Origin: Nocardiopsis trehalosi NBRC 14201
Lineage (GTDB): Bacteria; Actinomycetota; Actinomycetes; Streptosporangiales; Streptosporangiaceae
Direction of reading: 5' to 3'
Length of the DNA: 64,000 bases
NCBI RefSeq assembly: GCF_001552555.1
Contig: NZ_BCRK01000010.1
Location: 1-64,000 of the forward strand
Notes under the pieces: generated by a model
What the model was told of the DNA's origin: nothing
Databases searched by the model: none
What the model saw: only the letters and a program-made list of their open reading frames with translations
Part shown: positions 24,828-45,181 of the stretch, piece by piece
Layout: each line of letters begins with the position of its first letter
Position numbering within the stretch: position 1 is the first letter of the stretch
Made by a program: the position numbers and the translations under genes

Positions 24828-27152
24828 TCAGCGGTCGTCGTGGATGAGGCCGGTTGCGGGCGAGGAGGGGGCGTGCCTGCGGGCGGCGGTGCGGACCTGG
24901 GTGGCGCGGCCGGGGATGAGCGGGGCGAGCGGCCGGGTGCGCAGGGTGGCGGCGGGTTGCTCCTTGGCTCCGACGAGGGGACGCACGGCGGCCTGGTACG
25001 CGCCCAGGTGCGTGAGGTCGTAGGCGCGCAGCGAGGGCAGGGTGTGGTCTTCGAGCTGGGCCGCGTCGTCCGGCGAGCAGGTGAAGTAGATCTTGGTGCG
25101 GGCGTTCGCCGACAGCGCCTTGCGCAGGTCGCCCGGGAGCTGGCCGAGTTCCTGGTGGGCCAGGGTGAGGCCGAGGTGGTAGCCGCGGGCCTCGGCGAGC
25201 ATGTCGGCGAGGCTGCCCGGCATGTTGAGGAAGTTGTGGCACTCGTCGATGTAGGCGGCCACGTCCGCCCGCCGCTGCTCCTGCTGGTGGACGCGGGCGG
25301 TGACGGTCTGCCACGTCGCGGCCAGGGCGAAGGAGCCGATGAGCGAGCTGGTGTCCTCGCCGAGGCGGCCCTTGGGCAGGCGCATCAGCACGAGGCCGCC
25401 GGTGTCGAACAGCTCGGCCAGGTCGATGGTGGAGGGCCCGGAGGCGATCACCTGGCGGACCCAGGGGCGCAGCAGCGCGGTGCGCAGCTTGTTGAGGACG
25501 GGGCCGGTGGCGGCGGAGCGCGCGGAAAGGCTCAGGCCGCTGTACCAATTCCAGAAGTCGTTCAGGGCCTCGTCCCGCCGGCATCCCGCGGTGAGGCGGC
25601 GGCGGAGGTCGTCGTCGGTGAGGAGCCGGGGGATGTGGCCGAGGGTGAGGTGGGGATCCCGGGCGCGGGTGAGGGTGAGGGTGGCGGCGCGCAGGATGTC
25701 GTCGGTGCGCGGCCCCCACCACTGGGCGTAGATGCGGTGGAAGATGCCGGTGACGGTGTCGCTGGTGACGTCGGGGTCGCCGCCGTGCAGCAGGTTCAAC
25801 CGCGGCGGCGGGGCGTTGTCGTCGGGGTCGAACAGGACCACCCGGTCGACGGCCTGCTCCGGCAGGCGGGCCAGGACGTCGCTGATCAGGTCGCCGCGCG
25901 GGTCGATCACCAGCGCGGCGCGGCCGGCCTGGGCGTCTTGGAGGACGAGGTTGGCGAGCAGCGTGGACTTCCCGGAGCCGGTCTTGCCCAGAACGTGGGT
26001 GTGCTGGCGGGACTCGGCCACACCGACGGCGATGCCGCGCGCCGCCCCGGTGTCGGCTTCACCGAGAAGCCGGGTGTGCTCTCCACCGGAAGGGATGGTT
26101 GGCGAGGGAGCGATTCGTCGGGCTCCCGCGCGAGCAAGCCCCGGAACGCACGTGTCGGTGGGCAGGTGGGCGACGGCGGCGAGTTCGGGCACCGACAGCA
26201 GGTAGCCGCGGGCGAGGTAGCGGTGGCGCGCCCACAGCCGGGGCTTCCACATCCGGACGCGGCGCAGGTGGTTGGTGCCGGAGCTGAAGGCCGCGAAGGC
26301 GCCGGCGACGCCGGCGGCGCGTCCGCGCAGCCGTTCGCGGGCCTGCTCGGTGCCGGTACCGGTGCTGAGGAGGTAGCTGATGTGGCAGGCCAGTCGGGGG
26401 GAGGCCGCCTTGGTCAGGATCTGGCGGATGTTGTCGCCGGCGTCGGGCCACGTGTGGCCCGGGGTGCGGGCGGGCTGGGGGGCGAGGGCGTCGAGCAGCA
26501 GGGCGGCGCTGCCGGTGGAACGGCGGATGTGGGCGGCGGCCTGGCGGGCGCGGGCGGTGCGTCGCCCGGTGGCGGGCCGGGCGCACACGCGCACGCTCAC
26601 CTGCTGGTCGGGGTCCAGGTCGGTGACCGCGCCCAGCAGCGCGCGCAGCGGGTCGTCGGTGAAGCGGGTGCGCAGCGGGTACTCGTCGCCGCGGGCCAGG
26701 CGCAGCCACCCCCCGGTCTGTGCCGCACCGGTCTCCAAGGACGGAGCGTCGGGCCTGGTGCGGGTGGTGGCGCCCGGCCAGGCGGCGGCGACGGCCCGTT
26801 CCACCACGCCGGGCGGGACCGCGCCGGGAACCCAGATGTGGACCCGGATACCGGCGGCGGTGGCGGTGTACTCCCACGCCAGGTGCGGTTGGTCGAAGGG
26901 GCGGCGCCAGCGGGGCCTGAGCAGGCCGATGGTGTGGGTCCAGAAGGCGTGCGCGGAGTCGAGGGTGGCCTCGGGCGGCGCCAGGATCTCCACCAGGCGG
27001 GCGTCGCGGTGCAGGCGGCGATGGCGCAGCAGGCGGACCCCGAGGACGCCGACCACGTACCCGATCGCGGTGAGTGCGGCGGCGGTCAGCACCGGTTCCC
27101 AGAGCCCGGCGAGCACCTGCCCCGGGACGGCGGTCGGCCACGGTCCGTTCAC
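24828..27152 (-). CDS. VirD4/TraG-like coupling ATPase
   Basis: This 774-aa protein has two N-terminal hydrophobic stretches (near residues 20-45). A large extracytoplasmic or accessory region follows, then an AAA+ motor with Walker A LGKTGSGKST at about residues 388-397 and Walker B ALVIDPRGD. A TraM-recognition-like C-terminal half contains AAYIDECHNFLN and LTLAHQELGQLPGDL. Coupling proteins of this class present DNA to the type IV channel. The GTG start overlaps the VirB4 stop as GTGA. Confidence 0.85.
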   Translation of the reverse strand: MNGPWPTAVPGQVLAGLWEPVLTAAALTAIGYVVGVLGVRLLRHRRLHRDARLVEILAPPEATLDSAHAFWTHTIGLLRPRWRRPFDQPHLAWEYTATAAGIRVHIWVPGAVPPGVVERAVAAAWPGATTRTRPDAPSLETGAAQTGGWLRLARGDEYPLRTRFTDDPLRALLGAVTDLDPDQQVSVRVCARPATGRRTARARQAAAHIRRSTGSAALLLDALAPQPARTPGHTWPDAGDNIRQILTKAASPRLACHISYLLSTGTGTEQARERLRGRAAGVAGAFAAFSSGTNHLRRVRMWKPRLWARHRYLARGYLLSVPELAAVAHLPTDTCVPGLARAGARRIAPSPTIPSGGEHTRLLGEADTGAARGIAVGVAESRQHTHVLGKTGSGKSTLLANLVLQDAQAGRAALVIDPRGDLISDVLARLPEQAVDRVVLFDPDDNAPPPRLNLLHGGDPDVTSDTVTGIFHRIYAQWWGPRTDDILRAATLTLTRARDPHLTLGHIPRLLTDDDLRRRLTAGCRRDEALNDFWNWYSGLSLSARSAATGPVLNKLRTALLRPWVRQVIASGPSTIDLAELFDTGGLVLMRLPKGRLGEDTSSLIGSFALAATWQTVTARVHQQEQRRADVAAYIDECHNFLNMPGSLADMLAEARGYHLGLTLAHQELGQLPGDLRKALSANARTKIYFTCSPDDAAQLEDHTLPSLRAYDLTHLGAYQAAVRPLVGAKEQPAATLRTRPLAPLIPGRATQVRTAARRHAPSSPATGLIHDDR

Positions 27153-28945
27153 CGCTCCGGCCCGTCGAAGAGCGCTTCCTCGCCGTCGGGGCCGCCGGCG
27201 TGGCGGTGGAGGGCGGCGAGTTGGGCGGGGTCGGAGGTAATGAGCGCGTCCTCCTGCGGGGAGGCCAGGGCGCGGAAGCCGACCCGCTGGTTCCCGGCGA
27301 GCAGGAGGGCTTCACCGCGTTGGGCGGTGGAGACGATCTGGCGTTCGCCGTGGGAGAGCTGGAAGGCGTCGGTGACGGCGTCCAGGTTCTGCGGGGCCTG
27401 CCTCAAGAGGATCTGGGTGGCGGCGTTGGCGGCTATGGAGCGCCCCAGGTCGGTGGCGAGGACGTCGCCGACGTCCTGGGTGACCAAGGTGAGTCCGGCC
27501 CAGTGCTTGCGGGCGGCTTTGGCGAACCGGTAGAGGTACTTCGCCCCCACCGGGTTCTGCAGGAGCAGCCACCCCTCGTCCACCGTGATCATGCGCGGGC
27601 GGCGCTGGGCCGGGTCGGTGATGGTGCGCCACAGGGCGTCCAGGGCGAGCAGCAGTCCGGCGGTCTTGACCTCGTCGGGCAGGTGGCGCAGGCACACCAC
27701 GCTGAGGTGGCCGTCGAAGCGGCCGGTGGTGGGGCCGTCGAACAGGTCGGCGTGGGAGCCGGTGACGTAAGGGGCGAGCTTGGCCGCCAGCTCTCGCCCT
27801 TCCTTGTCGGTATCGGCGTCCAGGGCGGTGGCGAGGTCGGCCAGCAACGGCGGGGTGCGGTTCCAGGTACGGGGGTCGCGGGTGATGCCGACGGCGGCGT
27901 AGGCGGTGAGGATGGCCCGGTCCAGGGCGCCGGTCTCGTGGGGGGTCAACGCGCCGACCATGGCCGCGATCAGGGTGTGCAGGAACAGGGCCCGGTGGGT
28001 GAACGCCTGGGCGTCGCCGTCGGCGGGCAGGTCGAGGGGGTTGATCCGGCCCTCCGGCGTGCCGAGCGGGATGCGGACGCCTCCCACGGCTTCGGCCAGG
28101 CGCGCGTACTCGTCTTCGGGGTCGATGACCGCGACGTCGACGCCCGCCATGAGGGAGCGCAGGATCTCCAGTTTGGCCAGGTAGGACTTGCCCGCCCCGG
28201 AGCGGGCGAGGATCACGGCGTTGTGGTTGTCCAGGCCGCCGCAGAACCGGTCCCACAGCACCAGGCCGGTCGAGTGGGTGTTGGCGCCGTAGACGACCGC
28301 GGTCTCGCCCAGTTCCGCGTCGAGTTCGGGGGAGGTGAAGGGCAGGGCGGCGGCGATGGCGTCGGTGTCCATGGTGCGGCCCATGGCCAGGGTGTCGGTT
28401 CCCAGCGGGAGGGTGGCGATCCAGCCCTGGAGGCTGCGGAACGTCGCCGGTGCGGTGTCGACCAGCATGGACGACGCCAGCGCTCGGACGTAGGCGAGCT
28501 CAGTGTCCAGGGCGGCGGGGTCGGGGGCGTGGACGGTGAGGTAGAAGGCGAGGCGGAAGAGTCGGGAGCACCCGGTGGCGATGCGTTCGGCGAGGTCGCC
28601 GGCGTCGGCGGTCGCGGCGGTCTGGAGGGGGTCCTCCACCCGGCCGCGGGTGGCGTCCAGGCGCCACGCCGATTCCAGGCGGGCGCGGCGCTTGCGCAGG
28701 CGGGAGGCGGCGATCCCGGCGGGCACGGGCAGGATGTGCAGGGCGGCGTCCATGCGCCCGGGGTAGTGCAGCAGCGGTTCCGCCCACCCGGCGTGGACGT
28801 CGCGGGGATATCCGGTGACGATGAGCGTCTGGCACACCCCGCCCTCGACGGACAGGCGCCTCGCGCCGATCTCCACGGCCGGGCCGCCCAGCTCCGTCGA
28901 CTCCCCCTTCGCGGGCTTCCACAGGCGGTGCACGGGTCGCCTCAC
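27149..28945 (-). CDS. VirB4-like conjugation ATPase
   Basis: This 598-aa protein has Walker A (ARSGAGKSYLAKLE) around residues 247-254, Walker B (VAVIDPEDEYARL) and a second Asp/Glu box (RMITVDEGWLLLQ). A C-terminal TQDVGDVL block is conserved in VirB4/TraE proteins. The GTG start is set by the GTGA overlap with the PrgI gene. It energises assembly of the type IV channel at the inner membrane. Confidence 0.9.
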   Translation of the reverse strand: MRRPVHRLWKPAKGESTELGGPAVEIGARRLSVEGGVCQTLIVTGYPRDVHAGWAEPLLHYPGRMDAALHILPVPAGIAASRLRKRRARLESAWRLDATRGRVEDPLQTAATADAGDLAERIATGCSRLFRLAFYLTVHAPDPAALDTELAYVRALASSMLVDTAPATFRSLQGWIATLPLGTDTLAMGRTMDTDAIAAALPFTSPELDAELGETAVVYGANTHSTGLVLWDRFCGGLDNHNAVILARSGAGKSYLAKLEILRSLMAGVDVAVIDPEDEYARLAEAVGGVRIPLGTPEGRINPLDLPADGDAQAFTHRALFLHTLIAAMVGALTPHETGALDRAILTAYAAVGITRDPRTWNRTPPLLADLATALDADTDKEGRELAAKLAPYVTGSHADLFDGPTTGRFDGHLSVVCLRHLPDEVKTAGLLLALDALWRTITDPAQRRPRMITVDEGWLLLQNPVGAKYLYRFAKAARKHWAGLTLVTQDVGDVLATDLGRSIAANAATQILLRQAPQNLDAVTDAFQLSHGERQIVSTAQRGEALLLAGNQRVGFRALASPQEDALITSDPAQLAALHRHAGGPDGEEALFDGPER

Positions 28946-29853
28946 CCCTCTTCCGGGGCCGTGTCGGCGGGCGTGCTGTAGGCGGGGGCGAAGCAGGAGC
29001 GGATGACCTGCTCGCAGGTCTCCCGGTCGCAGACGTCGGCGCGGATGCCGATCCCGCCCAGGGCCGCGGCCAGGGTGTCCGCCGCGCGGATCGCACCGGC
29101 CGCGGAACGCGCACCGCGCGCGCCGGTGGTCACCACGACCAGGACGCGGCGCTGGGTGAGTTCCCGGTGGTCCTGGAGCTCGTCCAGGAAGTCCGCGTGG
29201 TCGAGGGCGGCCTCCTCCAGGCCGGGGTGGGGCAGGCGGGGGGCGTCGGCGCGGAGTCGCCGGGTGAGAGGGGCGAGGTCGAAGGCGCGGCCTTGGACGA
29301 TGATCTGCACGGGGTCGCTCAGCGAGTCGAGGACCGCGGCGAAGGCGGTGATCATGGAGTCCTGTTCGCGGCCGGAGGCCAGGTGGAAGTTCACCGTGGA
29401 GCAGGCGATGATCGCCGCGTGGCGCTCCCCGAGGTCGATGGCGCCCTCGTCGGTGATCGCCGAAGCGGGCAGCCGCAGCGGATGCAGCCGTGGCCCGCGA
29501 GGGGCCTTGGGCGCCCACCACGGGATGTCCGGCAGCCCGTCGGGGGCGCCCACCCGGCGCTTTCCCGAGCCCGCCCACCGCAGAGCGGACCAGGCGAGGC
29601 GGTCGATGCCGGTGCCGTCGCGCTGGGCGAGGGCGACCACCAGCGCCACGGCGGCGACCGGGACCGTGCACCCGGCCAGCACCGCCGGCTCGACGGTGTC
29701 CTTGAGCAGGAGGAAGCCGGCCCACAGGGCGAGCAGCACCGGGGTCAGGATGAGGAGCTGGCGTCCGCTCAGCCCGAAGGCGAGGGGTTCGGGCCGGTCG
29801 ATGTCGGCGGGGATGCGGGCCCGCCACTGCGAAGCCTCGTCGGCTGCGACCAC
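28942..29853 (-). CDS. PrgI-family conjugation membrane protein
   Basis: This 303-aa protein has two adjacent helices near residues 32-74 (LILTPVLLALWAGFLLL; VAAVALVVALAQRDG) after an IPADIDRPEP leader, the hallmark of PrgI. The C-terminal ~200 aa is cytoplasmic and resembles the N-terminal region of VirB4-type proteins (AIIACSTVNFHLASGREQDS). The GTG start has AGGAAGGA upstream. The order PrgI then VirB4 is standard in Gram-positive T4SS. Confidence 0.85.
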   Translation of the reverse strand: MVAADEASQWRARIPADIDRPEPLAFGLSGRQLLILTPVLLALWAGFLLLKDTVEPAVLAGCTVPVAAVALVVALAQRDGTGIDRLAWSALRWAGSGKRRVGAPDGLPDIPWWAPKAPRGPRLHPLRLPASAITDEGAIDLGERHAAIIACSTVNFHLASGREQDSMITAFAAVLDSLSDPVQIIVQGRAFDLAPLTRRLRADAPRLPHPGLEEAALDHADFLDELQDHRELTQRRVLVVVTTGARGARSAAGAIRAADTLAAALGGIGIRADVCDRETCEQVIRSCFAPAYSTPADTAPEEG

Positions 29854-29855
29854 GG

Positions 29856-31706
29856 TCAGTCCTTCCTGCGCGGTTTCCGGGTGGAGGTGGTGAAGGGCAG
29901 GCCGCGTTGCACCCAGTGCTTCCTGGGGTTGGGGAACAGGCTCCGCTGCCCTTTCAGCCGCGGCGGTGCCGTGGGCGGTGGCGCGTCGAAGACCTCACCG
30001 AGGCGCTGGCCCCGGGGCCGACCGGGGTGGCGCTGGGGTGGCGGGGTGGGCAGGACGCCTTGGCGCCACCGCTGCGCCACCGGCTGCTGCTGGGCCGGGC
30101 CGGGCGGGGTGATGGGGCGGAACAGCTCCTGCTGCTCACCGCGCGGTCGGCGGGGGAACCGGCCGTCGCCGAGCGACGGACGGGGCGGAGTCCCCGGGTG
30201 GGGGCGGGGCGGCGGTGGGTCGCCTGGGTCGGGGGCAGCGGGCAGCGCGCGGGGTCCGGTGATCTGGCGCCTCGCCGAGGTGGGCACCGCCCCGGGAACG
30301 GGCGGTTCGGAGCGATGCCGGTACCACCAGATGTTGGGCTGCAGCGGCTGCACCCCGGTGCCCGGGGCAGCGCCCACGGCGGCGCGGGGGCGCCCGCCCA
30401 CACCGGTCGGTCGTAGCCGGGTGAGGGTGGCCCGCGCGCCGGGGCGCCGGGCGGCTGAACCCATGTGGACCGGTTCGCCGCCGCGCAACCGCAGCCCCTT
30501 GATGCCCCGGTACAGCAGCATCATCGCCACCGTCCGCCCCAGCCCCACGATCGGCGAGGCCCCCAGGCGCGGCGACCACACCAGTTTCCAGATCCAGAAC
30601 GGTATGCGGATCTGCAGGTAGAGCATCACCAGGAACAGGATCAGGCTGTAGAACACCCCGCCGGTCCCTGTGGCGCCCTGCGCGGTGGCGACCATCAGGC
30701 GCGAGGCCACCATCGCCGAAGGGCCCACCGCCGCGCCCGGAACCGGGCCGGCTCCGGCCTCCAGGCCCTCGAAGCTGCCGAAGTAGGTGAACTGGCCTTC
30801 GAAGAACAGCCGCATGAACGCGATGAAGGCGATCGACTGGCAGATCGGCACCGCGCACAGCCCGACCATCGACCGCCACCACAGCTCCGCCAGCCGGTTG
30901 GTGGCGGGCACGGCGTGGAACATCAGCAGCAGCGGCGCGGCGATCACCAGCACGATCGACAACACGATGCGCACCATGTCCATCACCGCCCACACCACCA
31001 GAAGGACCACGGCGGCCACCAGCAGCAGCAGGATGAACACCACCGCTTCCATCAGCAGCACGTCCATACGCTCGTGCAGGTTGCGCGCCGCCTCCTCGGG
31101 ATTGACGCCGTCGGAGGCCACGGCGGCGGAGACGCCGTTGGCCGCGGTGAACATCTCCTCCACGATCCACAGGGAGAAGTTGGAGGCGGCGAAGGCGAAC
31201 ACGATCCGGCCCAGCACCTCGCCGGCGCCGGAGCGTTTCTGCCACGTCTCCTGGCCCATCACCACGGCGCCGCCGATCATGACCAGCAGCACGAACAGGG
31301 TGTTGGAGGTGATGAGGACCCCGCGCCACAGCTCTTCGACGCCATCGGTGGGCATGGGGACGCGGAACGCCTGCTTCGCCAGCCATCCGAACAGCGGGTT
31401 CAGCGCGTCGGAGACCAGGTCGTGGAACCAGTTGGAGACGTGGCAGGACACCTCCAGCATCCCGCAGTCCAGCGGGCCGCCCTCGGCCTCCTCGGCAGGC
31501 TCCGGCTCCGGTTGGTCCTCCGGGTCGGGAGGTGGCGGTCCCGGGGACGGGTCGGGCTCGGGGAACTCGGGTTCGGGTTCGGGCGGTGGGGGCGGGGAGG
31601 GTTCGGGTCCCGGTTCGATCGGGCCCGGCTGCGGCGGCTCGGGCTCCGGCGGCCGCGGGGCCGGGCCGGGCTGCACGTCGGGCTCGGGGAGGGCGGGCAG
31701 CGGCAT
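29856..31706 (-). CDS. VirB6/TrbL-like polytopic channel protein with proline-rich ends
   Basis: The protein has 616 aa. The first ~75 residues are a Pro/Glu/Asp repeat tract (for example PEPEPPQPGPIEPGPEPSP). A Cys-bearing segment (LDCGMLEVSCHVSNW) follows, then about six membrane helices between roughly residues 110 and 430, including VFILLLLVAAVVLLVVWAVM. The last ~170 residues are basic and Pro-rich (RPRGEQQELFRPITPPGPAQ). The ATG has GGGGAAG upstream. The topology fits VirB6/TrbL channel subunits. The proline tract may span the thick actinobacterial wall. Confidence 0.8.
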   Translation of the reverse strand: MPLPALPEPDVQPGPAPRPPEPEPPQPGPIEPGPEPSPPPPPEPEPEFPEPDPSPGPPPPDPEDQPEPEPAEEAEGGPLDCGMLEVSCHVSNWFHDLVSDALNPLFGWLAKQAFRVPMPTDGVEELWRGVLITSNTLFVLLVMIGGAVVMGQETWQKRSGAGEVLGRIVFAFAASNFSLWIVEEMFTAANGVSAAVASDGVNPEEAARNLHERMDVLLMEAVVFILLLLVAAVVLLVVWAVMDMVRIVLSIVLVIAAPLLLMFHAVPATNRLAELWWRSMVGLCAVPICQSIAFIAFMRLFFEGQFTYFGSFEGLEAGAGPVPGAAVGPSAMVASRLMVATAQGATGTGGVFYSLILFLVMLYLQIRIPFWIWKLVWSPRLGASPIVGLGRTVAMMLLYRGIKGLRLRGGEPVHMGSAARRPGARATLTRLRPTGVGGRPRAAVGAAPGTGVQPLQPNIWWYRHRSEPPVPGAVPTSARRQITGPRALPAAPDPGDPPPPRPHPGTPPRPSLGDGRFPRRPRGEQQELFRPITPPGPAQQQPVAQRWRQGVLPTPPPQRHPGRPRGQRLGEVFDAPPPTAPPRLKGQRSLFPNPRKHWVQRGLPFTTSTRKPRRKD

Positions 31707-31708
31707 GC

Positions 31709-32107
31709 TCACTTCCCCGCGCCTTTGACGATGTAATCCAGAACCACCATCAGCGCCGTGGCCAGGATCGCGATGCCGTAGCCCACGGCTGCGCCGCCCA
31801 GCGCCTTCTTCGCCCGGTCGATCTCGCTGGGGTCGCCGCCGGCCAGCATCCACCGCAGTCCCCCGACGGTAAGCAGCAGCGTCGCGAACGCCGAAGCCAA
31901 GGCGATGATGACGTTGCGCAGGCGCTCCACCACCTCTTCGAGGTCCGCGGTGGACTGGCCCGCCGGGTCTTCGCCTTGGGCCCAGGCGGCCTCCCCCAGC
32001 CCGGCGGCCACCCAGCCCGCGGCGGCGATACCGGCCACGGCCGCGACCACGGCGGCCCGCCGCCGCGCCTCCGGCTTCGGGTCCGCCCGCCCGTTCTCCA
32101 CCGCCAC
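31709..32107 (-). CDS. VirB2/TrbC-like pilin-type subunit
   Basis: This 132-aa protein has a basic head, then a signal-like helix ending AAWAQ (probable cleavage after AWA). Two hydrophobic helices follow (LRNVIIALASAFATLLLTVG; GGAAVGYGIAILATALMVVL) around a short basic loop (GGDPSEIDRAKKALGG), which is the TrbC/VirB2 pattern. A GTG at 32107 behind a GGGGGTGGGG stretch is chosen; the longer frame adds a non-hydrophobic leader. It stops 2 bases before the VirB6-like gene. Confidence 0.75.
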   Translation of the reverse strand: MAVENGRADPKPEARRRAAVVAAVAGIAAAGWVAAGLGEAAWAQGEDPAGQSTADLEEVVERLRNVIIALASAFATLLLTVGGLRWMLAGGDPSEIDRAKKALGGAAVGYGIAILATALMVVLDYIVKGAGK

Positions 32108-32276
32108 GCCCCACCCCCGCTCTCGCCGTGCCGTCCAGGTGAGTTCCGGGGCCGCGCCGCTCGTGCAGCGGGCGGGCTTCCCCCTCTCGGCATTCGGGTG
32201 ACAACCGACCGATCCCGTCAGGGCGAGTGACGAGTGGTCCCCCGTCGACCGCGGAGCGGCCCCGGAACTCAACCCC

Positions 32277-34583: not shown

Positions 34584-37427
34584 CTACTGGGATTCGTCAT
34601 TGGCGGCCGTCTCGCCGGAAGCCAGGGCAGCAGCGAGAGCGGCGGTGGGTGGAGCGTTCTCGGTCCGCTCCGGTTCAGCTGCTTCGTGGTAAGCAACGAA
34701 TCGCACACCTCCAGATTGGAGGCGGTTGTAGTAGTAGCAGCCGCTGTACGAGCCGAACGCTGCAGGGTGCATCACGATAAGCGGTGCGAGGGGGAGCGCA
34801 CGGCCAGCTTCTCGTGAGAGGAGGTACAGTCCGCTTTCCTCCATGGCCATGTTGATCGGGATTTGCTCCTGCCTGAAGGGAGTGTTAGGCCCCATGGCTA
34901 GTTCCACCTCATGGTGAAATACCCTGTTTCTAATCCGTGCGGCGCCGGCACGTACGAGAGCAAAGTCGTGCCAGCCGGCACCGATCAGGCTGCGCAGGGT
35001 GTGGACGTGACCGGTCAGGATGACGAGCTGCTCCTTGAGTGAAGCGTCGGTTGTCGTACCTGAGTGGCCTTTCCAGACATTTCGCTGTTGGTTCACCTCC
35101 CCGAACAGCTTGGTGAGATCGGCGCTGAGGAGGGTGTCCAGGAAATCTGGTGGCGCATCAGCAAAGGCGGCTCGTGCTCGTGCCTGCTCGTCGGTGTCGG
35201 TTCCGGTCAATGCGGTGCAATATCTCTTGTTGAGCCGTTGCAGGATTATGTTCCAGACACCGAGGCCGGCGTGCTCGGGTTTGAGTCCCACGGAGCTAAA
35301 TTGCTTGGCGAGTTCGGGAAGTTCCTGCTCAATCCGTGAACGGTCCTGGAGTAGGGCTGACACGCTCACGGTGGCGTGGAATTGGATGGTGGCTTCCCAG
35401 AAGTGGAACATCTGAGCACTGCGGGCGTGCAGGTTGATATCACCTTTGGACTCGTATGTCCAGAGGGCACTGGCCATGGGGAAGGGCAGATTGATCGCCC
35501 ATTGAGCGAGATCTGCTGACGGAACAAGGCCGCTGGCTTCGCGGTAGATGTCGGATCGCTTTTTGGGTTCGTTCCAGAGCTCTCGGTGGGAGGCGCCCAG
35601 GTGACGGCGGGCTGCGACAAGCGCCCGTTCCGCGCGGGCCATTTCCCTCTGGACGGGGAGGTCTGGCAGGACGACGAGGAGATCGTCAGCCATGCGCCAA
35701 GCCTGCGTGAGGCTGACGGCGCGGGGGCTGACATAGCTGTCGCCTCCGGAGCCGACAGCTGTCGAGCGCAGGTTCCTGCCGAGAGGGGAATTGAGCCACC
35801 CTGCCAGGTATTCGCCGTCCGTGTACGCGCTCCTGGGCCGAATCACGAGCACCCGGTTGTTGGGAGCGACTTCGCCAGGGTCCCCGGCCACCGCGTCCAG
35901 GTGCGGCTCGATGGGGACGACAACAGCCTGCTCCCCGGTGACGGCCGACAGCATGGCGGCTCGCCCGGCGGCCTTGGCCGAGGGAATGTAGCAGAAGTGC
36001 TCGGTGAGCTCGGTGAGACGGGCGGTCTTCCAGCCGAGCTGAGTGAGTGCTCGCAGCGCACGCGGAGTTCGGTCTGTGGCGAAGACGCGCTCCACGTCGA
36101 ACCGTGCGAACGGTGGTCTGGCCACCTCCGTCACGGTCGGTGACACAGTGGCGTACCGAGTGTCGCGCCAGGCTTCGGTGGTGGAGGTCGCCGGCACGAA
36201 CTTGGTCAGACGCGGAACATCGCCCGGCTCGCACCTGCTGGTGACCGCGGTGGCGTGATGGGTGACGTTGACCTGCCGAAACGACAAATCCCTTGCTGCG
36301 GCTGTTCGGCTGTAGGTCGTCGGGCCCGCATGCCTCAGGCTGCGGGACAGCTCATTGAGAGCTGCCTCGCTGATCGTGCGGCGTTCGAGTCGACGGCCGT
36401 CCCCCTCCTGATACAAACCGCGGAGATCGATGAACTGCACCTTGTGTCGACGTGCCGCAGGCTTCCGGTTGGAAAAGACCAAGGCATACAGCCGAACTTC
36501 GGTGTTGGTGCTGAGCCCTTCGGGCAGCACGACCACGGCGTCTAAAAGATCCTGATCGAGCAGCCATGCACGGATGGCGCTGCCACCCGCGTCGTACAGC
36601 GTTCCGGTGGTGGTGAACATGATGCCCCGGCCGCCGCCGTCCGCCGGATCCCGAAGCTTACTGACCATAATCTGGGCGAACAGGAGCGAAGCGTCGTCGA
36701 GCTGTGGAAGCCCGGCGGGGTAGCGGCCTTCCGGTCGGGCGGCGGCCTCGGCTGCGCATTCCTCGTAGCTTCCCCGCCAGGACCGGTTGTACGGAATCTC
36801 GGCCACCGCGTAGTCGAATCGGCGGTCGGGGAAGGCGTCCTGTGCGAGCGAGTCAGCATGGCTGAACCTGGAATCGGCACCCAGGAAGAAAGCGTGGGCA
36901 CGGGCACGCTGGACAGGCGCCGCGTTGATGTCCTGGCCGTTGACGGTGACAGCCGTTCCGGTCTGGTCGGCCAGCGCCTGCGCCGCGTCCAGCGCCAGGG
37001 TGGCAAAGCCGCACGCCGGATCGTAGAGACGTACCGCCTCCGTTCGGCTCTCGTGCGCGTCCGCGGTAAGGGCGGTTTTGGCAACCTCGACGAGCGAGGC
37101 CGACGTGGTGAACTCGCGGTGGCCCGAGGACAGGTCGGGACGGAGCAGGAGACGGGCATAGCGACGCAGCTGGGTCGGCGTGTAGTTGTTCAGTTCCTGT
37201 TGCTCACCGTCCAGCAGTGAGTCCAACTCAGGGGTTCTGTGTCGTGCATACTCCGCGGAACGCTGAAGGTCGTCGAGTTCTGGTGCAGGCAGGCTCGTGG
37301 TCCGGGTTCGCCATTCGACAGCGTTCCACAGCAGCGCGTCGGCCATGCCGCCGTGATGCGGGTGTCCCCGGAGCGAATCCAGAAGATGCCACAGGCGCTG
37401 TTCGACCGTCCGTTGCTCGTTCGCCAT
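34584..37427 (-). CDS. Fused N6-adenine methylase-like / specificity-like protein with HEPN-like tail
   Basis: The product has 947 aa. The N-terminal half is HsdM-like: motif I LYDPACGFATL (residues 136-140 DPACG), then RFDYAVAEIPYNRS where type I enzymes have NPP[FY]. The Asn is Glu210 and the first Pro is Ile211, so catalysis is doubtful. The middle (~450-640) resembles HsdS target-recognition segments (NRVLVIRPRSAYTDGEYLAG; LVVLPDLPVQREM). The C-terminal part has two RN-x3/4-H motifs, QQRNVWKGHSG (782-788) and RIRNRVFHHEVEL (833-838), the pattern of HEPN RNases. The ATG has AGGGGG upstream; an upstream extension is possible. It diverges from the type III R-M pair. Confidence 0.75.
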   Translation of the reverse strand: MANEQRTVEQRLWHLLDSLRGHPHHGGMADALLWNAVEWRTRTTSLPAPELDDLQRSAEYARHRTPELDSLLDGEQQELNNYTPTQLRRYARLLLRPDLSSGHREFTTSASLVEVAKTALTADAHESRTEAVRLYDPACGFATLALDAAQALADQTGTAVTVNGQDINAAPVQRARAHAFFLGADSRFSHADSLAQDAFPDRRFDYAVAEIPYNRSWRGSYEECAAEAAARPEGRYPAGLPQLDDASLLFAQIMVSKLRDPADGGGRGIMFTTTGTLYDAGGSAIRAWLLDQDLLDAVVVLPEGLSTNTEVRLYALVFSNRKPAARRHKVQFIDLRGLYQEGDGRRLERRTISEAALNELSRSLRHAGPTTYSRTAAARDLSFRQVNVTHHATAVTSRCEPGDVPRLTKFVPATSTTEAWRDTRYATVSPTVTEVARPPFARFDVERVFATDRTPRALRALTQLGWKTARLTELTEHFCYIPSAKAAGRAAMLSAVTGEQAVVVPIEPHLDAVAGDPGEVAPNNRVLVIRPRSAYTDGEYLAGWLNSPLGRNLRSTAVGSGGDSYVSPRAVSLTQAWRMADDLLVVLPDLPVQREMARAERALVAARRHLGASHRELWNEPKKRSDIYREASGLVPSADLAQWAINLPFPMASALWTYESKGDINLHARSAQMFHFWEATIQFHATVSVSALLQDRSRIEQELPELAKQFSSVGLKPEHAGLGVWNIILQRLNKRYCTALTGTDTDEQARARAAFADAPPDFLDTLLSADLTKLFGEVNQQRNVWKGHSGTTTDASLKEQLVILTGHVHTLRSLIGAGWHDFALVRAGAARIRNRVFHHEVELAMGPNTPFRQEQIPINMAMEESGLYLLSREAGRALPLAPLIVMHPAAFGSYSGCYYYNRLQSGGVRFVAYHEAAEPERTENAPPTAALAAALASGETAANDESQ

Positions 37428-37950: not shown

Positions 37951-38138
37951 AAGCAGTCCAGGCGCCGACCGTGGTCGCCAGGCGACGCGCCAGCTAGGTC
38001 GGGGGCCTACTGGCCAGCCCGCAGCACCGGCGACTCGAGACCGCCCGTCGCTGTCGGCGGCGGCCGGTACCTTTGCAGTGAGCGTTGTGGTCCGCGTCTG
38101 CATCGCGGGCCGATCGAGGTGCATGGGAGTGGTCGCGG

Positions 38139-39731
38139 GTGACGAGTGGGCGCCTGACCCTGTCGTGGGTCGGCAGGGATGAGGCCCTGTGGATCACGGC
38201 GGACGGCGGATACGAATGGGTTTCACGGCAAGACCCACGGGTTACCGAAGTGCGACTATTGCAGGAAACCGGCAAGGCTGGCGATGTGAGCGGCACCGCG
38301 GCGGACAACCTTTTCATTCACGGCGACAGCTATGATGCCCTGCACGCTCTTGTTCGTAACCCAGAGTACGGTCATCAATACCGTGGCAAGGTAAAACTCG
38401 TCTACATCGATCCGCCATTCAACACGGGCCAGGCTTTCCAGCACTACGACGATGCGCTCGAGCATTCTGTCTGGCTCACGATGATGCGTGACCGACTTCT
38501 GCTTATCCGTGACCTTCTTGCACCTGGCGGATCGGTCTGGGTGCATCTGGACGATGCTGAGATGGCGTACTGCCGTGTTCTCATGGACGAGATCTTCGGG
38601 CGTGGCAACTTTGTCGGGACTGTCGTCTGGCAGAAGATCCACGCTCGCAACAACTCCGCCCAGCATCTCTCCTCGGTGCATGACTACCTCCTCGTCTACG
38701 CCCGCTCCAAGAGCGATCTCGTGCTCAACAAAATCGATCGCACCGAGCTGAGCGACCAGGAGTTCTGGAACCCGGACAACGACCCTCGTGGCCCCTGGCG
38801 CAGGTCGGACCTCACGGCCTCCCACGCATACGAGGACGGCCGCTACGAGGTGGTCGGCCCACACGGCGATGTGTTTTCCCCGCGAGGCAACCGTTGGTGG
38901 TCGTGCTCAAGGGAGACATTCGACGCACTGCGTGAGGATAACCGGATCTGGTGGGGGAAGACTGGGCGCACTTTCCCGTTCCGAAAGCGTTTCCAGTCGG
39001 AACTGGGTGGCCTCGTGCCAACCACTTTCTGGACCCACGATGAGGTCGGCGACAACCGCCAGGCGAAGACCGAGGTGACCAAGCTCTTCGACCGGTCGCG
39101 GATCTTCTCAACCCCGAAGCCTGAGGCGCTCTTGAAGCGCGTTATCCAGATCGCCACTGACCCGGGCGACGTTGTCGTCGATGTGTTCGCCGGCTCGGGC
39201 ACGACCGCTGCCGTAGCTCACAAGATGGGACGTCGTTGGGTGACTGCCGAGATCCTTGAAGAGACGGCTGAGACCTTCACCCGTCCCCGTTTGGAGAAGG
39301 TCGTCGCCGGCGACGACCTGGGAGGCATCACGAAGACCGTTGGTTGGGAAGGCGGAGGCGGCTTCAGGAGCCTCAAGGCATCGCCGTCCGCGTTTGATTT
39401 CGCTGATGGCCGAGTCTTTCTCGCGGATTGGGTTGAAGGCGAAGACTTTGCTGCCGTCGTCGCAGCCCAGTTGGGCTTCATGTACGACAGCGCCGACGGT
39501 GGGCCGTTCTGCGGCACGAAGGGACGTGCTCGGCTGGCGGTTGTCGACGGGGTTGTGGACGAGGTTGTGGCCCGAGGCGTTATTGGGAGATTGGACGAGG
39601 GAGAACGAGCGGTGATCGTCGGCAGGGGCGCCACGCCGGAAGCTCAGAGTCTCATTGCCGAGTTGAGCCCAGGGTCCAAGGTGCTTAAGGCGCCTCGCGA
39701 CCTGGTGCGTCGCGGAAAGGCTGTGCGATGA
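38139..39731 (+). CDS. mod: Type III-like DNA methyltransferase (Mod, beta class)
   Basis: This 530-aa protein has catalytic motif IV VYIDPPFNTG (DPPF at 91-94), ahead of the SAM-binding motif I VDVFAGSGTT (350-354), i.e. beta-class order. The variable region between them is the target-recognition part. The GTG at 38139 is the likely start, since no upstream ATG in frame is credible. Its stop overlaps the next gene as ATGA. Base composition is lower in G+C than in the conjugation block. It should methylate adenine at the site cut by the neighbouring Res. Confidence 0.85.
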   Translation: MTSGRLTLSWVGRDEALWITADGGYEWVSRQDPRVTEVRLLQETGKAGDVSGTAADNLFIHGDSYDALHALVRNPEYGHQYRGKVKLVYIDPPFNTGQAFQHYDDALEHSVWLTMMRDRLLLIRDLLAPGGSVWVHLDDAEMAYCRVLMDEIFGRGNFVGTVVWQKIHARNNSAQHLSSVHDYLLVYARSKSDLVLNKIDRTELSDQEFWNPDNDPRGPWRRSDLTASHAYEDGRYEVVGPHGDVFSPRGNRWWSCSRETFDALREDNRIWWGKTGRTFPFRKRFQSELGGLVPTTFWTHDEVGDNRQAKTEVTKLFDRSRIFSTPKPEALLKRVIQIATDPGDVVVDVFAGSGTTAAVAHKMGRRWVTAEILEETAETFTRPRLEKVVAGDDLGGITKTVGWEGGGGFRSLKASPSAFDFADGRVFLADWVEGEDFAAVVAAQLGFMYDSADGGPFCGTKGRARLAVVDGVVDEVVARGVIGRLDEGERAVIVGRGATPEAQSLIAELSPGSKVLKAPRDLVRRGKAVR

Positions 39732-42151
39732 CCTGGATCGACTATGACTCCTCGCTCGTGGACGACATCGCGGCGAGGTTGGACCTTCGGGCACCCAATG
39801 CGTCGGCCGTTCGTGCGGTTGCAGAAGCGATCGCGGACGGGGACGGCCGCGAAGTGGTGTGTGACCTGGCGACGGGCGTCGGTAAGACATACATCCTTGC
39901 CGGCCTGGTGGACTACCTGGCAGCACAGGGAGTTCGGAACATCCTGGTCGTCACGCCCGGCACGACGATCCAAGATAAGACGGTTGCCAACTTCACTCCC
40001 GGGCACGCGAAGTTTGTGAACGGTAGTGACGTCGAGCCGTTGGTGATCACCTCGGAGAACTTCTCGCGAGGGCAGGTGGGCGACGCCCTGCACGACGACA
40101 CGGTCACTAAGCTATTCGTCTTCAATGTGCAGCAGTTGATCCGGCCCAGCGACAAGACGTCTAGACGGGTCCGGGCCCAAGACGAGTTCATCGGCACGGG
40201 TCTCTACCAGCACCTTCAGCAGGTAGAGGACCTCGTCGTCATCGCGGACGAGCACCACGTCTACAGCTCAAGGGCCAAGTCGTTTAAGCAAGCCATCGAG
40301 GACCTGGGCGCGCGGGCAGTCGTCGGGCTCACCGCAACACCTGCACCAGGTGTCAAGCCGATCTTCCAGTACTCCCTCGCCGAGGCCATTGCCGACGGCT
40401 TCGTGAAGATCCCTGTGATCGTCTACCGCCCGGATGGCCGGAAAAACGAGAGCACAATCCTTGCCGACGCTTGCCACCTGCTGCGGATAAAGGACGCCGC
40501 CTGGACTTCCTGGGCAGAAACACAGGGCAGGACCCCGGTGCACCCTGTGCTGTTCGTGGTATGTCGAGACATCCCCGATGCCGAGCGTGTCGCGAACAGG
40601 CTGACAGCCGACGACATGTTTCCCGACGAGGGGCAGGTGCTCACCATCACCTCGCAGTCGAGCGACACCGCACTGCGGGCCCTGGCTGAGGTGGAAGAGG
40701 CCGACTCGCCGGTTCGCGTCGTGGTCTCAGTGAACAAGCTGAAGGAGGGCTGGGACGTCAAGAACATCGGCGTCATCGTCGGCCTGCGCGCTCTCGCGTC
40801 GGAGACCCTGACGGAACAGGTCCTCGGCCGAGGGCTGCGTTTGCCTTACGGTCGCCGGGTTGGTACCCCCATGGTGGACACGGTTGACCTTGTTGCCCAC
40901 GAGTCCTACCGGCAGTTGCTGGCCAATAAGGACGCGCTGCTGCAGCAGGTTCTGCCCGCTGATGGCGGTGATCTGGACAAGGACCGTCCGCAGCCGGCCC
41001 CTGTTGCGAACCACCCGAGCGGCGGCGATGGACAGCAGATCCTGACCTTTACGTCCCATCCGCGTGTCATCGGTGACGACTTGGTGGACGGCTCTCCGTT
41101 GCTCCACGTGGAGTCGTTTGACGCGGCCATGGCGCAAGGCGAGCGTGACACGAAGGCCGTTGCAACGCTTCGTACCAAGGTCCCCGGCGCGCCGACGATC
41201 CGCTTCCCCAGGCGTGAGCGGGAAATACTTCCTGTGCGTTTCTCCTTCAGCTACATCGACAACGCGGCCGCGCGGTCTGAAGGTGCCGCGTATAAGCACG
41301 AGTTCAAGGTCCCGTTGGTGCGACAGGCGGTCGACGCCCAGCGCGGCATGGACAGCAAGGTGGACACGTTTGTAACGGCAGCCGAATCGGTTGACGCCAC
41401 CCAGAAGTTTATTTCAATCTCCGAACTCCGCAACGATCTTTTCGATCGAATCTGGAACAGCGATCACGTGGAGGAGACCCTTGCGGAATCCCGAGCGGCC
41501 GATCGTGTTGTCCGCGAGTTCTTGGCGGGAGCCGGCGTCACCGCGGAAAATCAGGAACACGAGTGGAGTGAACTGCGTGCCGCCCAGGCAGCCGCTGCCC
41601 TCGGTAAGTTGGTCAAGACCGCCTACGACAACCGTAAGTCTCAGCCCACTTACGCCTTCCGTCCGGTGAACGTCCCGACTGTACCCCCACCGCCCATGCC
41701 CTCAAACATCGTCAGTAAGTGGGCAGATTTCCGTAAGGACTTTTGGTACGAGGGCTGGGAGCACTCGGTCGAACCGGTTGCCTCCTTCGACGCCGGCAGC
41801 ACCGAGTACGCCCTGGCGCACCTGTTCGACGCGAGCCCCAGCGTCCAGTGGTGGCTGCGCAACTACGACCCGGGGCCCATCTGGATCGAGCGGGACAACG
41901 GGAAGAAGTACTATCCGGACTTCATCGTCCTCGACACCGAGGGAACGTACTGGGTCGTGGAGGGCAAGGCCAACGACCGAGCGAACGATTCCGAGGTGCT
42001 GGAGAAGCGGCGAGCTGCCGAGGATTGGGCGCGCTTCGTCCGGGATCATGGCGAGTTCGGCACGTGGCGGTACATCTTCGCGACCGAGAAGATCATCAAA
42101 GATGCCAAGGGATCGTGGGAGTCTCTGATCGCGTTGGCCAAGCCGGAATGA
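39728..42151 (+). CDS. res: Type III-like restriction helicase-nuclease (Res)
   Basis: This 807-aa superfamily 2 helicase has Walker A LATGVGKT (47-54), DEHH box VIADEHHVYS (174-177), motif III GLTATP (200-205), a switch motif LKEGWDVKN and motif VI VLGRGLRLP. The C-terminus has a PD-(D/E)xK-type nuclease core, YYPDFIVL then WVVEGKAND (PD 730-731, E745-G-K747). Domain order and coupling to mod fit type III Res. The intact motifs suggest an active restriction system. Confidence 0.85.
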   Translation: MTWIDYDSSLVDDIAARLDLRAPNASAVRAVAEAIADGDGREVVCDLATGVGKTYILAGLVDYLAAQGVRNILVVTPGTTIQDKTVANFTPGHAKFVNGSDVEPLVITSENFSRGQVGDALHDDTVTKLFVFNVQQLIRPSDKTSRRVRAQDEFIGTGLYQHLQQVEDLVVIADEHHVYSSRAKSFKQAIEDLGARAVVGLTATPAPGVKPIFQYSLAEAIADGFVKIPVIVYRPDGRKNESTILADACHLLRIKDAAWTSWAETQGRTPVHPVLFVVCRDIPDAERVANRLTADDMFPDEGQVLTITSQSSDTALRALAEVEEADSPVRVVVSVNKLKEGWDVKNIGVIVGLRALASETLTEQVLGRGLRLPYGRRVGTPMVDTVDLVAHESYRQLLANKDALLQQVLPADGGDLDKDRPQPAPVANHPSGGDGQQILTFTSHPRVIGDDLVDGSPLLHVESFDAAMAQGERDTKAVATLRTKVPGAPTIRFPRREREILPVRFSFSYIDNAAARSEGAAYKHEFKVPLVRQAVDAQRGMDSKVDTFVTAAESVDATQKFISISELRNDLFDRIWNSDHVEETLAESRAADRVVREFLAGAGVTAENQEHEWSELRAAQAAAALGKLVKTAYDNRKSQPTYAFRPVNVPTVPPPPMPSNIVSKWADFRKDFWYEGWEHSVEPVASFDAGSTEYALAHLFDASPSVQWWLRNYDPGPIWIERDNGKKYYPDFIVLDTEGTYWVVEGKANDRANDSEVLEKRRAAEDWARFVRDHGEFGTWRYIFATEKIIKDAKGSWESLIALAKPE

Positions 42152-43312: not shown

Positions 43313-45181
43313 GTGCTGCGCAGCATCCACGACCCTGACCGCGGCGCCGGCTACGTCGAGTACGGCGCCGTCATCCTGCTCGTGGCCGCCATCGCCGCCA
43401 CCGTCATCGGCTCCGGCATCACCGGCCGCATCCAACAGATGATCACCGGCGCCGTCGACTCCGTCGGTCAACCCCAGGCCGACGACCGCGACAGACCGGA
43501 CAGCACCGAAGCGCCGGACGACCCCGCCGACCCACCCAGCGCGCCCGACGCCCCGGGGATCACGCCCGCCTTCTCCCAGGACACCCGCCCGTCCTTCGCC
43601 CCGTTGGGCCTGGGCAGCCTGCTGCCCGGCGTCGACGGCTCCCGCCTCACCTACGCCTACTCCACCGGTGACCTGCGCGAGGACGTCACCGGACTGTTCG
43701 ACGACGCGCTCGCCTCCCAGCACCGCGCGTTCGGCGAAGGCCTGGAGATCGGCCACGAGACGATCACCGGGCCGATCAACCTCGCCGAAGACCTCATCGA
43801 CGACCCTCTGGGGACGGTGCAGCGCGGTGTGGACGGCGCCGCTGAGCGCTTCACCGGCATGGGCACCGCCGCCTGGTCGACATTCCAGGAGTCCACGGAC
43901 CTCGCCTTCCAGGGCTACCAAGACGGCCAGCTGCTCGGCGGCATCTTCGACAGCGGCCTGCACCTGGGCGGGTGGGGGCTGCGCCAGGGGCTCGAGCTGG
44001 GGTTGGGTGACGAGGCCGTCGAGCACTTCGCCAACGGCGAGATCGAGCAGGGCGCCGCACGGACGGGTGTCACGGTCGCGTCCTGGCTCATCGCCGGGCC
44101 GGCCGGAAGGATCGGCCTGAGCGGTCTGCGGCTGCTACCGGAATGGACCGGCTCCGCACGCGGCCCGGAACCCGGCAGCAGCCCTCTAGCGAACGGCCCC
44201 GACCGCGACCCGCCGGGCGAGGACACCTCGACCACCGCAGGAGAGGACGAGGACACCGACCGCGGCAGCGAACCCTGCGCCCCCAGCAACAGCTTCATCC
44301 CGGGCACCGCGGTCCTGCTGGCCGACGGCACCACCGCCCCCATCGAGGACGTCGCCGTAGGCGACGACGTGCTGGCCTTCGACCCCCTCACCGGGGAGGA
44401 AGGACCGCGCGAGGTCACCGACACCATCACCGGCGACGGCCACAAGCCCCTGGTCACCCTCACCATCGACACCGGCGACGGCACCGACACCCTCACCGCC
44501 ACCGACGAACACCCCTTCTGGGTCCCCGAACAGGCCCAGTGGGTCGACGCCATCGACCTCACCCCCGGCACCTGGCTGCGCACCTCCACCGGCACCTGGA
44601 CCCAGATCACCGCCGTCGACGTCCACGAGACCCCCGACCAGCGCGTCCACAACCTCACCATCGCCGATCTCCACACCTACTACGTAGGGGTCGACGGCGT
44701 CGGTTGGCTCGTCCACAACGACAACGGTCGTGAGAGCAGCTGTCCTGATTGGCTCCGCGACCGCCTGGAGGCGGGGAATAACTTCAACCGGGAGAGGGAA
44801 GCCCACTACACCAGACTCGGAGGCGCCAACGAGGTCCACGTCGGCCCCCGAACCTCAGGCAACCAGTACCAGCGTGTCGATTCCTACATACCTGGTAGGG
44901 AGATCGTCTCTCGTAAGTACACTCAACTGTCAGAGATCCAAGAATCCACCGCCTTCAACTACCTGCGGGAACTCGCAAGAGACTACGGGCCGGGCACCCC
45001 GATCGCCGACACGCCGACCAACCGGCGGGATCTTCCGGAGGACCTGATCGGCGAAGAGCTTGATGGCCAGATGTACCTGGAGGTTCCGGTTCAGAACAGC
45101 ACCGTTCCGGACTCGGTCATCAGCGAAGCCAACCGTTTGGGCATCATCATCCGAGACGAGAACGGCCACATATGGAGATGA
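43313..45181 (+). CDS. Polymorphic toxin 1: prepilin-like N-terminus, HINT domain, nuclease-like tip
   Basis: The protein has 622 aa. Residues 1-45 match a Flp prepilin: RG|AGYVEYGAVILLVAAIA, with Glu at +5 and Tyr at +6 of the predicted cleavage. Residues ~46-321 are an acidic, helical linker. A HINT (hedgehog/intein) domain spans ~322-469, from C-x9-G (CAPSNSFIPGTAVLLADGTT) through TDEHPFWVPE to WLVHN, the self-cleavage signature. The tip (470-622) has NQYQRVDSYIPGREIVSRKY, with D523, E530 and K535 resembling restriction-endonuclease-fold actinobacterial toxins. It starts at GTG. The tip is visibly more A/T-rich than the rest, as expected for swapped tips. Confidence 0.85.
   Translation: MLRSIHDPDRGAGYVEYGAVILLVAAIAATVIGSGITGRIQQMITGAVDSVGQPQADDRDRPDSTEAPDDPADPPSAPDAPGITPAFSQDTRPSFAPLGLGSLLPGVDGSRLTYAYSTGDLREDVTGLFDDALASQHRAFGEGLEIGHETITGPINLAEDLIDDPLGTVQRGVDGAAERFTGMGTAAWSTFQESTDLAFQGYQDGQLLGGIFDSGLHLGGWGLRQGLELGLGDEAVEHFANGEIEQGAARTGVTVASWLIAGPAGRIGLSGLRLLPEWTGSARGPEPGSSPLANGPDRDPPGEDTSTTAGEDEDTDRGSEPCAPSNSFIPGTAVLLADGTTAPIEDVAVGDDVLAFDPLTGEEGPREVTDTITGDGHKPLVTLTIDTGDGTDTLTATDEHPFWVPEQAQWVDAIDLTPGTWLRTSTGTWTQITAVDVHETPDQRVHNLTIADLHTYYVGVDGVGWLVHNDNGRESSCPDWLRDRLEAGNNFNREREAHYTRLGGANEVHVGPRTSGNQYQRVDSYIPGREIVSRKYTQLSEIQESTAFNYLRELARDYGPGTPIADTPTNRRDLPEDLIGEELDGQMYLEVPVQNSTVPDSVISEANRLGIIIRDENGHIWR

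Follow-up and report, generated by a model that had tools for sequence, protein, structure and literature searches.

Gene organization at the locus

The window analyzed here, a 64,000-nt stretch of the Nocardiopsis trehalosi NBRC 14201 genome, contains on its minus strand an ORF (34584-37427) encoding a 947-aa protein, whose orthologues align from the same start codon. From the amino terminus this protein comprises a degenerate HsdM-like methylase, a region with some likeness to an HsdS half, an alpha-helical C-terminal domain bearing the pattern RNxWxGHxG, and a beta tail. Transcribed divergently from it, on the plus strand, are the genes of a type III restriction-modification (R-M) pair: mod (38085-39731; PADLOC MTase_III, 2e-141), given here by its ORF bounds with a true start probably slightly further in, and res (39728-42151; PADLOC REase_III, 5.8e-60). 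These three genes have third-position G+C values of 0.73-0.78, below those of most neighbours, and are flanked by conjugation genes (24.8-32.2 kb) on one side and a HINT-domain protein on the other. By virtue of this composition and position, they resemble a defence segment that has been acquired and lies within a conjugative element.

The conjugation genes (24828-32204, minus strand) encode a TraG/TrwB-like coupling protein, a VirB4-like ATPase and a TrbL/VirB6-like protein, the last scoring below the Pfam cut-off. On the other side lie two HINT-domain (PT-HINT) proteins in opposite orientation (43313-45181, plus strand; 47422-49101, minus strand), both with a pilin-like hydrophobic N-terminus (RxIHDPxRGAGxxEYxxVILLVAAI) and each beside a membrane-like protein of about 120 aa; these are possible secreted polymorphic toxins.

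Occurrence and integrity of the family

Close orthologues of the 947-aa protein (65-86% identity) are present in genomes of Streptomyces and on three plasmids of that genus, and distant relatives (21-31%) in Mycobacteriales and other actinobacteria. The family is nonetheless rare: it was found in about three of 395 class-level genomes, not counting the window's own, as five intact copies among 251 genomes from a single actinobacterial family, and as a single other match, a kinase fusion described below, among 343 genomes of the window's own family. A phylum-wide sample of 396 genomes yielded no other copy, and the phages and viral contigs searched yielded no relatives. Weak matches in two genomes, G203 and G132 (E-values of 0.003-0.009), were taken as chance, that in G203 falling within a DinG-like helicase ORF.

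Two of about fourteen copies are broken, and the gene is intact in at least ten sequences. The copy on a Gordonia plasmid (L022:9902-12421) is split by one in-frame TAG and annotated as two N-6 DNA methylases, and one Streptomyces copy (L017:8001-10830) has an apparent frameshift near residue 126. Short C-terminal fragments of the family in other actinobacteria (L049, L050, L033) are apparently decayed copies. The TAG and the frameshift are what might commend the notion that the gene is a remnant or artefact, a decaying HsdM fusion. That notion is scarcely credible given the number of intact sequences and the ratios of nonsynonymous to synonymous substitution (dN/dS), which in five pairs tested range from 0.09 to 0.30 over the methylase, HsdS-like and C-terminal domains (0.12-0.30 for the methylase; 0.09-0.27 for the linker and putative HEPN part). 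All parts of the protein are thus under purifying selection and the degenerate methylase domain is not decaying; on these ratios we reject a pseudogene.

A methylase domain with a family-wide loss of motif IV

Residues 105-390 (36258-37115; this and all following segments of the protein are on the minus strand) have the fold of an N6-adenine methylase (PF02384, 1.7e-26) and are catalytically degenerate. The Pfam N6_Mtase match covers residues 106-351 of the 947-aa protein, which has no Pfam match past it, and the domain was found in all 11 members checked. Among solved structures, the best relatives of the family profile are M subunits of type I enzymes, such as that of EcoR124II (6.6e-23). 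Preceding the methylase, residues 1-104 (37116-37427) form a helical N-terminus, which is absent from the Mycobacteriales members in the family alignment (L031, L045-L048). An HMM of HsdM N-termini gave low-scoring matches to the Streptomyces members, at residues 2-37 and in a single register, so that the first 35 or so residues bear a weak resemblance to the HsdM N-terminal motif in Streptomyces members only; HsdM_N (PF12161) itself had no Pfam match in 11 members.

The initial annotation had described a methylase that keeps DPACG and replaces NPP[FY] with EIPY. Both features are present, motif I at residues 136-140 (37008-37022) and motif IV at residues 210-213 (36789-36800), and the degeneracy of motif IV extends throughout the family. 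We compared this motif by alignment and tree in 12 family members and 20 ordinary type I and related methylases: NPP[FY] is present in all 20 of the latter and in none of the 12, where it is replaced by EIPY (five members), DAPW or DSPW (six) or DVPM (one). The 12 form a single clade with support of 100/99. In most members the glycine-rich stretch of motif I has changed as well, the DPACGTGG of HsdM reading DPACGFAT or DPACGSAT in Streptomyces and FAT replacing TGG in the window protein, and L032 lacks the D. Homologues with NPPF restored and RNxxxH absent, which would have spoken against the initial annotation, did not turn up: none of the 12 has NPP[FY], and 11 members without exception share R782 and H788 of the C-terminal motif discussed below.

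From the family-wide loss of motif IV we infer that methylation activity has been lost. It is very unlikely that the protein is a still-active methyltransferase with an unusual motif IV, its C-terminal region serving for binding only. Such a reading could draw on the closeness of the Mycobacteriales DAPW to DPPW, on the capacity of D or E at the first position still to hold the amino group, and on the retention of an aromatic residue of motif IV in 11 of 12 members and of part of motif I. Against it, no member has an intact [DNS]PP[FYW], the motif opening with E or D and having I, A, S or V where the first P would stand; TGG is missing from motif I in Streptomyces, as is D in L032; and, as shown below, operons that carry the gene already encode an intact HsdM with NPP[FY].

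Weak likeness to one HsdS half

An HsdS-like half had been described as fused to the methylase. That description survives in a weaker form: residues 391-603 (35619-36257) weakly resemble the final part of one HsdS target-recognition half. Using hhalign, a profile of residues 391-640 aligned with the final part of each HsdS half-repeat, at the same position in both, scoring 27.0 and 26.7 against 11-17 for controls, and Methylase_S (PF01420) had no match in any of 11 members at E-values of 1 or less. We therefore ascribe to residues 391-640 a weak, profile-level likeness to one HsdS half.

A portable C-terminal module with a putative HEPN active site

Residues 604-820 (34968-35618) comprise a coiled linker and an all-alpha, putative HEPN-type RNase domain, delimited by the family alignment and by a module shared with a kinase protein (below); its helices are seen in low-confidence models only. 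A beta-rich C-terminal tail (residues 821-921; 34665-34967), conserved in all architectures, travels with it. Two HEPN-like motifs had been noted in this part of the protein, and their fates differ. The first, RNVWKGH at residues 782-788 (35064-35084), lies in the all-alpha region and is conserved in relatives as RNxWxGHxG. All of 11 members, with identity as low as 21%, have R782, H788 and G790, and the kinase fusion likewise has R782 and H788; N783, W785 and G787 are conserved in at least 90% of the 11. N783 is present in all members except L032, which has T in a shifted RTAGAH form. The second motif, RNRVFHH at residues 833-839 (34911-34931), reads RNGVFHH or RNGVHHH in other Streptomyces and is gone outside that genus; we rejected it as a catalytic site, and it is probably not catalytic. 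Motifs of this kind arise often by chance, shuffles of residues 640-900 containing two Rx4-6H patterns in 59% of cases and at least one RNx3-4H in 4.3%, and so are weak evidence by themselves; the case for the first rests on its conservation.

Catalytic HEPN domains are recognized by an Rx4-6H motif at the end of helix 3 of a helical bundle, a polar residue (N, D or H) directly after the R, and a conserved acidic residue upstream (PMC3710099). The family has R-N-x4-H, with the polar N following R782, and an acidic residue upstream of it, E659, that is invariant. In low-confidence AlphaFold2 models, helices at 771-786 and 794-815 flank the motif, placing it at a helix end and the start of a loop; these models, built on five similar sequences, had pLDDT values of 37.6 and 34.0, too poor for a fold search. 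The domain matched no Pfam family or PDB chain, and PB2 matches in the PDB search, at E-values of 0.4 and above, were attributed to chance. Compared by hhalign with sets representing Swt1, Abi_C, HEPN and Abi_2, it scored no better than controls, and known HEPN families likewise missed each other. On conserved residues, then, the domain probably belongs to the HEPN RNase superfamily, and a HEPN fold and cleavage of RNA, which is metal-independent in that superfamily, are predicted for it.

The same module occurs in an entirely different setting. In genome G1109, a tandem Ser/Thr kinase protein (L079:8213-10864, minus strand) carries about 320 C-terminal residues, including RNNWIGHGG, behind a pair of protein kinase domains such as PADLOC lists under PD-T4-6; its gene has no restriction genes near it. 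This segment is 31% identical to that of the Gordonia copy (3e-33), and it lacks H684, leaving R782 and H788 as the best active-site candidates. By this comparison the C-terminal 320 or so residues form a portable module, in keeping with a transferable effector, and the kinase protein is a putative second sensor for the same putative effector.

Recurrent association with type I restriction operons

The type III pair beside the window gene, which the initial annotation had singled out, is indeed present at 38085-42151; it is absent beside every other copy examined and was rejected as a conserved or meaningful partner. The recurring partner is a type I system. At four loci (L022, L031, L046 and L047) the family gene is the fourth, after hsdM-hsdS-hsdR, and at L032 it overlaps the end of an hsdR that is truncated by the contig edge, leaving only the C-terminus; in these five relatives the spacing from hsdR is -23 to +4 bp. 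The operons have, next to the family gene, an HsdM of their own that is intact and retains NPP[FY]. HsdR of L046 is 49% identical to that of L031, and HsdR of L047 only 23% over part of its length, whereas the fourth proteins of these loci are 62-65% identical (65% for L047 with L031). Since the HsdRs are more divergent than the fourth proteins, the gene has joined type I systems on more than one occasion. At L019, type I hsdS-hsdR and a kinase gene lie nearby, the order within L019:11004-18794 (minus strand) being hsdS-hsdR, a Ser/Thr kinase bearing TPR-like repeats, and a protein of 263 aa that has no Pfam match. SIR2-like proteins are encoded downstream of the fourth gene at two unrelated loci (L032:4814-6103 and L022:14076-15608, both plus strand).

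About half of the copies, that of the window included, have no type I genes in the surrounding DNA examined; these include L016, L018, L021, L045 and L048, some with short flanks. The window's own genome does encode type I hsdM and hsdR on another contig (C91, L073; 2332-11146, plus strand), which could serve the window protein in trans. On that contig a 756-aa second methylase precedes hsdM and hsdR; its N-terminus (AEISRLAGVTRATVSNWRRR) reads as helix-turn-helix-like. The interpretation given in the initial annotation is partly supported, its restriction link moving from type III to type I.

The solitary copies bear on the proposal, put forward in the initial annotation, of a stand-alone sensor of DNA modification, in which the dead methylase and HsdS-like half would bind a site whose methylation gates the fused RNase, independently of any restriction complex. 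The flanks of L016, L021, L045 and L048 and the purifying selection on a degenerate methylase fold are consistent with it. We nevertheless consider it unlikely: it leaves unexplained the recurrent position right behind hsdR of unrelated type I systems, and a single weak HsdS-like half that diverges no faster than the rest of the protein is unlike the usual sequence-reading domain. Operon position and the HsdM-like body would accord with a non-catalytic regulator, a dominant decoy subunit that tempers type I restriction and whose alpha domain binds RNA or protein and does not cut; non-catalytic RNA binders do exist among HEPN domains (PMC3710099). An R/H pair conserved this exactly, however, is what catalytic HEPN domains typically show, and the module is also found on a kinase whose surroundings lack restriction genes, making this regulator quite improbable.

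A possible restriction-linked effector

PrrC is a HEPN RNase that is inactive while held by the type I enzyme of its operon and is released by a phage anti-restriction peptide (PMC3710099). By analogy, we tentatively favour, at somewhat less than even likelihood, the interpretation that the family encodes a latent, restriction-linked toxic effector, in which a dead HsdM/HsdS-like body monitors type I restriction, or its DNA, and is joined to a PrrC-like putative RNase. The body, its methylation lost, would dock as a decoy subunit on the type I R-M complex or on the DNA which that complex guards, being held by, or competing for, the partners of the type I enzyme, and the C-terminal HEPN-type RNase would be kept inactive while docked. 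Disabling of the complex by a phage anti-restriction protein, or its encounter with DNA beyond its handling, would be the trigger; the released RNase would then cut cellular RNA, stopping phage growth at the sacrifice of the cell. The logic would be that of PrrC with EcoprrI, the dead methylase standing in for the ABC ATPase of PrrC. The window copy, having no adjacent type I operon, would act alone, in partnership with the type I system encoded on another contig of its genome, or together with its divergent type III neighbours.

A broader generalization, more doubtful still, is that the family typifies a class of restriction guards, in which a dead HsdM/HsdS mimic coupled to a portable HEPN-type RNase senses attack on type I restriction and responds by abortive infection. 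DNA-mimicking anti-restriction proteins that bind HsdM/HsdS would then bind the mimic too, and the same RNase module would be wired to kinases elsewhere.

Relation to known systems and implications

Like PrrC, which is encoded in type I R-M operons, and like RloC, the family protein has a regulatory body ahead of a C-terminal HEPN-type RNase, putative in this case. Embedding in a type I operon as with PrrC applies to L022, L031, L046 and L047, and to L032 behind its cut-off hsdR, and not to the window, where the neighbour is type III. The body itself differs, being an SbcC/Rad50-like ABC ATPase in PrrC and RloC and a degenerate HsdM/HsdS-like protein here; in contrast to the N-terminal ABC ATPase of PrrC and RloC, no ATPase family is among the Pfam matches of any member. 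HsdM shares with the family an N6_Mtase domain of about 30% identity, and differs in that the family protein has lost motif IV, has a degenerate motif I and a fused C-terminal module, and stands beside the HsdM of the operon and does not replace it. Dead methylases are also found among degenerate methyltransferase partners such as METTL14 of eukaryotic RNA methylation, a nucleic acid-binding scaffold in which E likewise opens motif IV (EPPL) and which, unlike the family protein, has no nuclease module.

Coupling of HEPN-type effectors to DNA restriction is also seen in HEPN fusions to the DUF499/HmaC-type ATPases of BREX-related systems and in other R-M-linked HEPN clades (PMC3710099, PMC12839542), whose fusion partner is a nuclease, helicase or ATPase, in contrast to the methylase-like partner here. 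A 2013 survey stated that fusions of restriction-linked HEPN domains are to nucleases, helicases and ATPases, 'but not to the methylases' (PMC3710099), and the open-access literature, represented mostly by titles, abstracts and term counts, yielded no later report of a HEPN-methylase fusion. With its putative HEPN domain, the family appears to contradict that statement; while being an exception to the rule it fits the reason behind it, because its methylase part has lost the catalytic motif.

Until now PrrC has served as the model of how a type I operon can conceal a second line of defence. The family defines an effector module that Pfam does not list and that is combined with different sensors, and, if our interpretation is true, it offers a simple way to sense anti-restriction proteins by mimicry. 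In the actinobacteria that carry it, the gene may provide a backup alarm, halting the cell once restriction has been disabled by phages.
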